In this document: piece after piece, positions 35,688 through 39,045 of the stretch
Layout of the letters: each line of letters starts with the position of its first letter
Numbering within the stretch: the stretch's first letter is position 1
Source of the DNA: Planctomycetota bacterium
GTDB taxonomy: Bacteria > Planctomycetota > Planctomycetia > Planctomycetales > Planctomycetaceae
Reading direction: 5' to 3'
DNA: 43,815 nucleotides
Assembly: GCA_017859815.1 (NCBI GenBank)
Contig: JAFMMM010000010.1
Coordinates: forward strand, 1 to 43,815
Translations under genes and position numbers: made by a program
The notes under the pieces: generated by a model
Told to the model about the DNA's origin: nothing
The model's database searches: none
Seen by the model: only the letters and a program-made list of their open reading frames with translations

Positions 35688-36863
35688 TCAGGGGACGAGA
35701 AGCACGCGATCAGGGCGGACATCGACTGTGCGAAAGTGGTCGCCGAAAATCTTCGGGAAGAATTGAGACCCTGGCTGACGAGTGCTGACGGCCTTGAGTG
35801 AAATGATGGTCTGCAGAACGCGATTCACTGCCGGAGTTTGTTCTCCTGTAATCTGAATCGGAATCCCGTTGCTGCGGAGCGTGGCCACGACATCACCCAG
35901 CCTCGCCCGATCTGCCTGCAGCTGAAACAACCGAGTTTGTAATGAGTCGGGGGAAACGGCTGGGTTGCCGGCAGCTTTATTCGGTCCTGCTGACAAGGCT
36001 GCGAAATCGGCGTGCTGATCGATGGTTGCAGTGAGGATCGCGTCGCTTCCCGACCACCGTGGCTGCGGACCCTGCTTCCACTGCTGCTGAATCGCGTCCC
36101 GCTGGTCCCGCTGCGATGGATGCCGGAGTGTGAACTCTTCGTCCACGGCGATGGGGCGGATTGTGACGGCCGGCTGCTGTGCGTCGGCGTCGGCATACAG
36201 ATCAAACTGTGAGAGTACCAGACTGGCCAGTTCAAGAAACGTGAGTGGCGGAAGTTGCTGCTCTGCCCAAATGTCATGGGGTATCTGCGGCAGGTTGCGG
36301 ATTTGAATCCCACTGCGATCGGCAGCCTGCCGAAGAATTTCAGCCGGCGTTGCCGGTGTTTGCCAGCTCTGTGGGAAGGAAGTTGTTGCCTGCCGTGGAA
36401 TCGGTCTCCCCGGCAATTGTTTCCATTCGAGTTCCTGCTGGGCGGAATGCAGCAGCAGGACCGGAAGCCGCCGTGTCTGTAGTTGCGGGCCGATCAGCAC
36501 ATATTTGTCCGTCTGAACCACGACGGCTCCCGGTATCACCTCAGCCGTCTGCTGCAGGATTCGAATTCGTGGGACAAAGCCCGAGTCAATACTCACTGGC
36601 TGTCGGGGGTTCAGCAATCGATGACGAAGTACAGCGGCACCGGACTGGCTGCTGAAGTCATTCAGCATTTGGCCAAGCGAAACGTCACGAACCGACCAAC
36701 TGACAGACGTATCAAGGATTTTGCGCAACTGCTTTCCAGCTGCTGGAGGCGCGGAATGAAGAGGGGCACCGGAAACGGCGAACAGGACCGTCAGCAGTGC
36801 CGCTCTGATGAACGCTCGCCGAACAGGGTGTTCGGGTACGAAGATGTCATGTCTGCGGCACAT
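35688..36863 (-). CDS. Exported protein with secretin/TonB-short-N-terminal (STN)-like segments
   Basis: This is a 391-residue protein with a Sec-type signal (RRAFIRAALLTVLFAVSGAP). Residues of about 50-125 resemble the STN fold of secretins and TonB receptors: VSWSVRDVSLGQMLNDFSSQ, then PVSIDSGFV, then a helix and a strand pair ending VVVQTDKYVLIGP. A similar pattern recurs in the middle (TPAEILRQAADRSGIQIRNL) and near the C-terminus (LGDVVATLRSNGIPIQITGE, ending FRTVDVRPDRVLLVP). There is no secretin pore domain and no TonB barrel. The ATG at the complement of 36861-36863 follows GAGG. It is divergent from the Hsp70 gene across 274 bp. The fold call is moderate and the function is unknown; related planctomycete proteins are generally hypothetical. 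Confidence 0.65.
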   Translation of the reverse strand: MCRRHDIFVPEHPVRRAFIRAALLTVLFAVSGAPLHSAPPAAGKQLRKILDTSVSWSVRDVSLGQMLNDFSSQSGAAVLRHRLLNPRQPVSIDSGFVPRIRILQQTAEVIPGAVVVQTDKYVLIGPQLQTRRLPVLLLHSAQQELEWKQLPGRPIPRQATTSFPQSWQTPATPAEILRQAADRSGIQIRNLPQIPHDIWAEQQLPPLTFLELASLVLSQFDLYADADAQQPAVTIRPIAVDEEFTLRHPSQRDQRDAIQQQWKQGPQPRWSGSDAILTATIDQHADFAALSAGPNKAAGNPAVSPDSLQTRLFQLQADRARLGDVVATLRSNGIPIQITGEQTPAVNRVLQTIISLKAVSTRQPGSQFFPKIFGDHFRTVDVRPDRVLLVP

Positions 36864-37137
36864 TCAAATCCTCGCTGAGAAAAGGGTACATTGATGAAGC
36901 AACGTCGCAGATCGCGAACGCAGAATCCGGCGACAAAACCTGGCGATAGAATGCGGTTGCAGTCCACCGACAGACTGCGTTGTCGCTTACCGGCAGATGC
37001 AGGCCTGGGGACGTCCCCGGAATTGGCAGGTAAAGATCCTGGCTGGAAGCCGTGGTGTTTGAGAAATCCCGCTGGGTCCGCCCCCGCCTGGCCAGTAGAA
37101 TATTAGCGTCGCAGTGCCGCTACAGAAGGGTTTAGGG
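36864..37137. other. Divergent promoter region between the STN-like gene and the Hsp70 gene
   Basis: These 274 bp must hold promoters for both divergent genes. A TAGAAT at about 37095-37100 resembles a -10 element for the Hsp70 gene, but no good -35 lies at the right distance. I see no CIRCE-type inverted repeat (the usual HrcA operator of heat-shock genes). A short plus-strand frame from 36891 looks non-coding. Confidence 0.4.
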
Positions 37138-39045
37138 ATGAAAAAAACGCAGGCCGTCGGGATCGATCTTGGAACGACTTATTCCAGTCTCGCCGTACTG
37201 AACAAGCACGGCCAGCCGGTCACCATTCCGAATCAGGATGGTGAACTGTCTACGCCTTCCGTGGTCTATTTTGATGGGGCCAACGTGGTCGTCGGTACCG
37301 AAGCGCTGCGAAATGCGGTTTCATCTCCCGACCGCGTTGTCCAGCACGTCAAACGCTGGATGGGAGATCCGCAAAAGCTCTGGGAGGTTGATGGCCGCGG
37401 TTATACACCAACGGATATCTCTGCGTTAATCCTGAAGAAACTCCTTCGCGATGCAGAAACGCAGCTTGGGAAAATTCGCGAAGCTGTGATCACGGTGCCG
37501 GCGCTGTTCAGCGAAACACAGCGTCAGGAAACGCTGAACGCCGGGCACGCGGCGGGTCTGGAAAAAATCCAGATGATCAACGAGCCGGTCGCCGCTGCGC
37601 TCTGCCATGTTCTGGGTGACGAGGGACTGGCCTTTGCCGAACTGGCTGTCGACCAGAAAATCCTGGTCTTTGACCTCGGTGGCGGTACGCTGGATCTTGC
37701 TGTCGTTGATTATCGTTCTGAACACGTGCGGGTTATCGCATCCGGCGGAGATCCTGAACTTGGCGGACTCGACTGGACGCGGGTTCTGGTGGATCTGGCA
37801 GCCGGGCGCTTTCTTGAAGAAACCGGGATCGATCCAAGAGATCATCTCCGCAGCCTGCAGTATCTCAGTCTTGAATCAGAGCAGGCAAAGCGAAGTCTGT
37901 CCGCAAGAGATCGCGCTGCGGTTTCTGTGCAGCATGAGAACCAACTGAAGACTTACCAGATTGGAAAGAACGGGTTTGAACTTTCCAGTGCGAAGTTGCT
38001 GGAGAAGTGCCGACAGGTGACGAACGGTCTGTTGGCGGATAACAGCCTTGGCTGGGCTCGCATCGGCACTGTGCTGGTCACCGGTGGGGCTTCCCGAATG
38101 CCAATGATCCGTGATCTGTTACAGAAAATGTCCGGCCGGACATTGAATCGTACGTTGTCTCCGGATCAGTCGATCGCTCATGGTGCCGCCAGCTATGCGG
38201 GGATGTTGCTGTCCGGAGATGGCAGAGCTCAGGACCTGTTCAGCGGCAAAGTTTCGGAACGACTCGGCCGGATCCAGCAGCAAAGTGTGAACGCCAGACC
38301 ACTCGGCATCATGGTTCGGGATCAGCAGGCGGGGCGTCGCGTTCCGTGCTGGCTGATTCGGGCGAACACTGTATTGCCTGCGGCAGTGACCCATATTTTT
38401 GGGACAGCAGGCCCCAACCAAAGACGAGTGCGAGTGCGTCTTGTGGAAGGTGGGCTGGGGAAGCAGCCTGCGGTCGAAGTTGGTGAATGTGTGATTACTG
38501 ATCTTCCACAAAATCTCCCGGAGGGCTCCAAAGTTGAAATCACAATTGCATACGATCAGCAGGCGAGAATTCAGGTGACGGCTCAGGAGCTCCAAAGTCG
38601 TTGTCAGGCCACGGCGAATCTGACACGTCCGGGGAATGTGCTGCAGACGCAGTCGCCGGGCCGCGGCGAGTCAAAGAACGCAAAGACGCCACAAGCCAGG
38701 AAACAAGCCGCCGGAAAATCTGCCAGACCCGGTGCGAAAGCAAAGCAAAAGCGGCCCGCGCGCAAGCCCCCGCGGCCAAAACCTCGCCCCCCCGCCGCAG
38801 CAGTGACAGACTTTGGGGCAGAGTGTTTTGACGATGACTTGTTGCGAGCGATGTCGGATGCTGCAGATGAGAGCCCAGTCTTCTTGTGTCATCGGTGCGG
38901 AGTGGAGCTCAACTCCGCTGGCTACTGCGACGACTGCGATGGCGATCAGGCCCAAAGCAACCCTTCAGACAGCCTGAAGCAGCGCGATGAATCCGTCGAA
39001 ATCTCAGAAGAAGAGTTCTGGGATTACGAACTCGATCAGGAATGA
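37138..39045 (+). CDS. Hsp70-family protein with basic linker and C-terminal zinc ribbon
   Basis: This is a 635-residue Hsp70 relative. The nucleotide-binding domain is intact. It has phosphate-1 GIDLGTTYSS from residue 8, phosphate-2 DLGGGTLDLA from Asp179, and adenosine-binding VLVTGGASRMP near 312-322. A substrate-binding beta domain follows (about 375-500) with VTHIFGTAGPNQRRVRVRLV and EGSKVEITIAYDQQARIQVT. The usual helical lid is missing. Instead there is a Lys/Arg/Pro/Ala-rich stretch at about 510-556, then an acidic region with a four-Cys motif C-X2-C-X9-C-X2-C at 584-600 (CHRCGVELNSAGYCDDC), and an acidic tail. The ATG at 37138 follows a purine-rich site. No dnaJ or grpE lies nearby, so this is not the housekeeping dnaK. 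Partners are unknown. Confidence 0.93.
   Translation: MKKTQAVGIDLGTTYSSLAVLNKHGQPVTIPNQDGELSTPSVVYFDGANVVVGTEALRNAVSSPDRVVQHVKRWMGDPQKLWEVDGRGYTPTDISALILKKLLRDAETQLGKIREAVITVPALFSETQRQETLNAGHAAGLEKIQMINEPVAAALCHVLGDEGLAFAELAVDQKILVFDLGGGTLDLAVVDYRSEHVRVIASGGDPELGGLDWTRVLVDLAAGRFLEETGIDPRDHLRSLQYLSLESEQAKRSLSARDRAAVSVQHENQLKTYQIGKNGFELSSAKLLEKCRQVTNGLLADNSLGWARIGTVLVTGGASRMPMIRDLLQKMSGRTLNRTLSPDQSIAHGAASYAGMLLSGDGRAQDLFSGKVSERLGRIQQQSVNARPLGIMVRDQQAGRRVPCWLIRANTVLPAAVTHIFGTAGPNQRRVRVRLVEGGLGKQPAVEVGECVITDLPQNLPEGSKVEITIAYDQQARIQVTAQELQSRCQATANLTRPGNVLQTQSPGRGESKNAKTPQARKQAAGKSARPGAKAKQKRPARKPPRPKPRPPAAAVTDFGAECFDDDLLRAMSDAADESPVFLCHRCGVELNSAGYCDDCDGDQAQSNPSDSLKQRDESVEISEEEFWDYELDQE

Follow-up and report, generated by a model that had tools for sequence, protein, structure and literature searches.

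The question raised by this locus is what an Hsp70 might do when it has no helical lid over its substrate-binding domain and ends in a largely disordered arm. The gene is an uninterrupted ORF of 635 aa at 37138-39045 (+), with an ATG at 37138 and a stop codon at 39043-39045, in a 43,815-nt stretch of planctomycete DNA (contig JAFMMM010000010.1; "the window" below means this whole stretch); its frame stays open in the 5' direction as far as a GTG at 37114. A scan for sigma-70 sites upstream of the gene returned nothing promoter-like, and no CIRCE element was found anywhere in the window. The reading we favor, with a probability of roughly 0.42, is that of a lidless, fast-exchange Hsp70 that is probably independent of DnaJ and GrpE and is tethered by its arm to a fixed protein partner. 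Feature coordinates are collected in Table 1.

Table 1. Features of the Hsp70 gene and of its divergent neighbor, in window positions; residue numbers (aa) refer to the Hsp70 unless otherwise stated.
Feature	Position	Strand	Basis
Divergent neighbor, 391 aa, signal-like N-terminus, no Pfam match	35688..36863	-	Conserved synteny
Nucleotide-binding domain (NBD), aa 1-365	37138..38232	+	Pfam; alignment to E. coli DnaK; AlphaFold2 (AF2)
Interdomain linker, aa 366-385	38233..38292	+	Alignment to DnaK
Beta substrate-binding domain (SBD-beta), aa 386-497	38293..38628	+	Alignment; AF2 strands 389-495
Disordered linker 1, aa 498-562, K/R/P/A-rich	38629..38823	+	pLDDT below 50
Short predicted helix before ribbon, aa 566-577, low confidence	38833..38868	+	AF2
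Single zinc-ribbon-like knuckle, aa 580-602, Cys 584/587/597/600	38875..38943	+	Ortholog conservation; weak Pfam matches; AF2
Disordered linker 2, aa 603-620	38944..38997	+	AF2; shorter here than in most orthologs, where it is basic
C-terminal tip, aa 621-635, EISEEEFWDYELDQE, predicted amphipathic helix	38998..39042	+	Ortholog conservation; AF2

An actin-like NBD with Hsp70 signatures, followed by an SBD-beta (PF00012), places the protein in the Hsp70 superfamily. The Pfam match covers residues 6-503 only (E = 5.6e-87), stopping short of the lid part of the profile. The AF2 model, from a 47-sequence alignment (mean pLDDT 82.6), consists of the NBD and all of the SBD-beta strands up to residues 490-495, with disorder beyond and no lid helices; a second ortholog (L036) has the identical plan, again without a lid. 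The SBD-alpha lid expected of a DnaK is thus missing from both models, and from the alignment to E. coli DnaK. The best 50 Foldseek matches are all Hsp70s, and include DnaK and BiP structures with the lid deleted, as well as the Ssz1 complex. A preliminary description of this DNA had recognized the NBD and SBD-beta and the absence of a C-terminal helical lid, and the structure prediction it proposed as a check bears this out: there is no normal lid in the model.

The residues at the core of the Hsp70 cycle are retained. By alignment, the catalytic K70, E171, T199, and D201 of DnaK and the P143/R151 relay are all kept, as are I401, F426, T428, Q433, and V436 of the peptide groove, with conservative I438V and I472V replacements; catalytic and groove residues are kept throughout the orthologs compared. 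The surfaces through which DnaK is coupled to its cochaperones are a different matter. The interdomain linker is some 15 residues longer than that of DnaK, and its hydrophobic VLLLD has become IQQQS. Across the aligned orthologs the DVLLLD linker of DnaK is nowhere intact: L391, L392, and D393 are replaced in every one, with D393 a serine in all those compared. The GrpE-facing NBD hairpin is shorter by six residues; replacements are also found at R34, K55, and L257, which together with the hairpin we take to be GrpE positions. The J-domain contacts R167, D393, K414, and Q378 read Q, S, A, and Y in the window protein and D/E, S, A, and Y/F in the other aligned orthologs, and the acidic cluster E206/D211/E217 is mostly lost; PMC8215388 counts R167, Q378, L390-D393, K414, and E206/D211/E217 as J-domain, linker, or clamp contacts of DnaK. 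The canonical DnaK encoded in the same genome (C334) keeps nearly all of these contact residues. The alignments therefore suggest that the DnaJ and GrpE contacts have been lost from the window Hsp70.

Gene content can be set beside this. A search of the genome's contigs located neither dnaJ nor grpE on the contig of the window, in keeping with the preliminary observation that neither lies beside the gene; the only two J-domain genes are on contigs C463 and C112, and the sole grpE is on C463. These two J-domain genes compare with four full-length Hsp70 genes in the genome, a ratio that also speaks for the favored reading. Besides the window gene, the four comprise two lidless paralogs (C164, C214) and the one canonical, lidded DnaK (C334).

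The paralogs lead to a larger group. L003/L002 (C164, C214) and L071-L115 make up a large lidless clade, apparently separate from DnaK, HscA, and HscC. In a conserved-domain tree, the subfamily of the window gene's order (SH-aLRT 100) is nested within a larger planctomycete Hsp70 group, which is itself split (SH-aLRT 100) from E. coli DnaK, HscA, and HscC and from the genome's own canonical DnaK; this is a quick tree, rooted by four outgroup rows that include DnaK, HscA, and HscC. The window Hsp70 is placed within the lidless clade (SH-aLRT 100) and apparently apart from HscC, the latter being a preset outgroup with a very long branch (2.24). Scores against NCBIfam equivalogs are well below the cut-offs: 294 and 286 bits for the DnaK models (cut-offs 648 and 822) and 225 bits for the HscA model (cut-off 709). 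Similar changes in the interdomain linker and J-domain site are seen in alignment across the lidless planctomycete clade, where the GrpE contacts too are altered or lost. Most of its other sampled members end soon after SBD-beta, a common 523-aa type with a conserved E-Y-x-[VI]-E end, another possible docking tip; others have helical, acidic, or different zinc-type C-termini. L091 (7905-10166) encodes a lidless Hsp70 with a different paired-CxxC arrangement close to the C-terminal end, which may have arisen by a separate fusion to a zinc ribbon. Because the lid is absent clade-wide and most sampled members do not have the arm seen here, lid loss probably came before the arm, which would have been added to an already lidless Hsp70. 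To describe the lid as replaced by the tail, as was done initially, is therefore misleading.

Within the order the gene is universal in our sample. Every one of 61 genomes carries an ortholog, with an identity of about 43% or higher (in one genome it is split over two contigs). The family sample has one in 34 of 37 genomes, the three exceptions being MAGs of 79-90% completeness; relatives that carry it include MAGs labelled Fuerstiella, Gimesia, Planctomicrobium, Schlesneria, and other Planctomycetaceae. Elsewhere in the class, 22 genomes drawn from six further families yielded no ortholog: no match there exceeded about 350 bits, and the orthologs score 427 bits or more. Since the only absentees are incomplete MAGs, this appears to be an old, retained gene. 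The arm recurs across the order's orthologs, so that it is not a peculiarity of one genome; confinement to a single genome would have counted against the preliminary description. Literature searches, which left most subscription journals outside their scope, returned no account of this Hsp70 subfamily. Taken together, this suggests an order-wide Hsp70 subfamily that is undescribed within the literature searched.

The arm was compared in 51 distinct complete orthologs. Its linkers diverge fast: between the window protein and its nearest relative, 14 of 65 linker 1 residues are identical, whereas the NBD has 306 identities in 365 residues. Residues 503-556 of the window protein include 16 K/R and 21 P/A, with one acidic residue, so that the Lys/Arg/Pro/Ala-rich linker first reported is certainly present here. 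It had been proposed that this linker and the zinc ribbon direct the chaperone to nucleic acid or to the ribosome, and a segment with this composition, together with a linker 2 that is basic in most orthologs, might seem to invite such a reading. However, charge is not conserved. In the 37 ribbon-bearing orthologs the mean net charge of linker 1 is -1.5, compared to +8 in the window protein, and that of linker 2 is +9.8, compared to -4; the whole tail has a charge of -5 in the window protein and is positive in 37 of the 51 orthologs, although with a mean of only +3.6. With a mean of -1.5 in its orthologs, the basic linker 1 is a trait of the window protein and not of its subfamily, and was rejected as a conserved nucleic-acid-binding tail. 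The most conserved element of the tail is moreover acidic (see below). Targeting by the tail remains plausible as a general idea, but its nucleic-acid version is weak, and we consider it quite unlikely.

Between the linkers lies the four-Cys motif, which the preliminary description had correctly placed at residues 584-600. All four cysteines are kept in 37 of the 51 complete orthologs, whereas the ortholog tails, about 9,500 residues in all, have just 21 Cys outside it; the motif is therefore more than a chance arrangement, and the suspicion that it might not be conserved among close relatives can be set aside, most of them having kept it. Its consensus is P-[VI]-x-L-C-N-x-C-G-x2-L-x3-G-x-C-x2-C. 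Some of the orthologs without the four Cys retain a decayed knuckle, L035 for example having three. No Pfam model scores above its cut-off for the ribbon in the window protein or in six ortholog segments: the paired CxxC is present, but DZR and Zn_ribbon_3 match weakly (the best of the six segments reaching 21.4 bits against a cut-off of 27.3) and Zn_ribbon_8 hardly at all. AF2 is semi-confident of the ribbon (pLDDT about 78 at 581-600), with the predicted helices at 566-577 and 624-632 doubtful. The knuckle is a probable zinc binder.

A zinc knuckle in a disordered arm recalls Ruc (Rv0991c), which has a zinc domain and a disordered tail, becomes a chaperone upon oxidation, and binds DnaK (PMC7448276); in 32% of PVC cases, ruc is found with dnaK and other chaperone genes (PMC7448276). 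The arm could conceivably be a fused version of Ruc or Hsp33, with the ribbon as a redox switch: oxidation of the cysteines would free the zinc and turn the arm into a holdase passing clients to the groove. Here the knuckle and disordered arm are indeed fused to an Hsp70. The near absence of Zn_ribbon_8 matches, with those to DZR and Zn_ribbon_3 weak, does not favor this, however, and 12 orthologs have the C-terminal tip without the four Cys, where the arm must work switchless; a redox switch seems distinctly improbable.

Judged by conservation in the orthologs, the acidic-aromatic tip at the extreme C-terminus is the most conserved element of the tail. The preliminary description had noted an acidic tail, and the last 33 residues of the window protein are acidic, but it missed the tip, [DE]xEFWDL, which is kept in 41 of the 51 complete orthologs with the consensus D-P-[GN]-E-[DAE]-E-F-W-D-L-V-D. 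The window protein's own version reads EFWDY. In ortholog tails FW is found solely at the tip, and the 41 tips share its flanks: E at -3 in 36, E/D at -1 in 40, L at +3 in 30, V/L at +4 in 27, and an acidic residue at +5 in 33. By sequence, these flanks form an acidic amphipathic segment, and AF2 predicts a helix here in both proteins modeled (624-632 in the window protein, 664-674 in L036). Neither tip nor ribbon is placed confidently on the body of the window protein or of L036 (pLDDT about 50 and 70-78, respectively). Both elements occur together in 29 of the 51 orthologs, the tip alone in 12, the ribbon alone in 8, and neither in 2; on the ortholog tree, the ribbon needs about 9 changes and the tip about 7. 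From these numbers both appear to be modular, and each to be dispensable in some lineages, which counts against the favored reading.

Linkers as disordered and fast-diverging as these would also be expected if this were an ordinary DnaK paralog whose low-complexity tail is drifting neutrally. The conservation of ribbon and tip inside the drifting linkers contradicts this, as does the retention of catalytic and groove residues in all orthologs compared, and we give such drift very little credence.

Several searches were made for related motifs. The tip is not a widespread one: a strict DNA pattern for it had just five hits in 61 genomes, of which four were assigned: three to the Hsp70s described here and one to a TolC-like protein. 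The EFW[DEQH]L pattern, which excludes the window protein's EFWDY, had none in the genome of the window. The TolC-like protein (L066, L126; minus-strand or reverse ORFs, 769 and 604 aa) has DPSEQEYWDLDLDE near its N-terminus, a striking likeness to the Hsp70 tip, which is taken as a coincidence or a separate motif. A short acidic-hydrophobic motif resembling DDEI[LM]EL is found in linker 2 of orthologs L023-L028, L031, and L032; none was seen in orthologs from the window's genus.

A protein bound by the tip could be either a client or a partner. For the disordered end of DnaK (DDVVDAEFEEVKD), a role as an auxiliary binding site has been proposed, and in P. putida this end influences how DnaK functions (PMC7918210). 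By analogy, the arm could bind clients, as a second site whose tip holds unfolded chains near the groove and so offsets the missing lid. Like the end of DnaK, the tip follows a disordered linker and closes the protein, and it has an acidic-F core. Nevertheless, the consensus tip aligns with the DnaK tail no better than shuffled sequences do (12% reach its score), and descent from the DnaK motif was rejected on this basis; an FW pair with conserved flanks also seems too specific for a generic binder, and the DnaK motif has no W. A client-binding arm is conceivable but unlikely. Conservation of the FW pair and its flanks is why we prefer an arm that binds a partner.

A partner does not seem to be encoded alongside. 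Of the 30 ortholog loci whose upstream sequence exceeds 1.3 kb, 20 have a gene related to the divergent neighbor there, but its product looks, from its N-terminus, like an exported protein, which makes it an unlikely direct partner for a cytosolic Hsp70. By eye, it also contains repeats resembling secretin/TonB short (STN) domains (35688-36863, -). Among the ortholog loci, no conserved neighbor suited as a partner was found.

If the preferred reading of a partner-tethered chaperone is correct, the Hsp70 would bind ATP and probably hydrolyze it, with an ATPase that the general DnaJ and GrpE would not drive; having no lid, it would both take up and release exposed peptides quickly. Lidless DnaK has a lower affinity and exchanges peptide 10-100 times faster, and the lidless Ssz1 has been described as optimized for transient binding (PMC7083937); it is from this shared lack of a lid that we infer quick exchange. 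The arm would serve as a tether, its acidic-aromatic tip, plus the zinc knuckle where this is kept, docking on a fixed protein partner and so confining the action of a weak groove to one place.

A 2021 review recognizes three prokaryotic Hsp70 types, DnaK, HscA, and HscC, each drawn with a lid (PMC8215388). We tentatively raise the possibility, which we hold to be somewhat doubtful, of a fourth bacterial kind in planctomycetes: lidless, free of DnaJ and GrpE, and with docking tips specific to each subfamily, here an EFWDL on a zinc-knuckle arm directed to a dedicated partner. A lidless lineage without a J-domain site would, if real, reveal what the Hsp70 cycle can do without and by what means a tether makes a weak groove useful. 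The FW tip also offers a handle for a partner search, by peptide pull-down (DPNEAEFWDLVDGDE) in cultured planctomycetes.

Among known systems, DnaK shares with the window Hsp70 its NBD, ATPase residues, SBD-beta groove, and disordered acidic C-terminal end, but the latter protein is without the lid, the VLLLD linker, and the DnaJ/GrpE contacts, and has a zinc knuckle and an FW tip. The other lidless planctomycete Hsp70s belong to the same clade and have similar linker and J-site changes; they are about 36-40% identical to it, and have no such knuckle or EFW tip. Ssz1, of the yeast ribosome-associated complex, likewise combines a complete SBD-beta with an unusual interdomain linker and no lid, but it does not hydrolyze ATP and is completed by Zuo1 (PMC7083937), whereas the window Hsp70 keeps its catalytic residues as far as the alignment can tell. 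Ruc (Rv0991c) resembles the knuckle arm as a small four-Cys zinc domain with a disordered tail that works with an Hsp70 (PMC7448276); Ruc, however, stands alone and its zinc domain is of another type, while the knuckle described here is fused to the Hsp70 itself.
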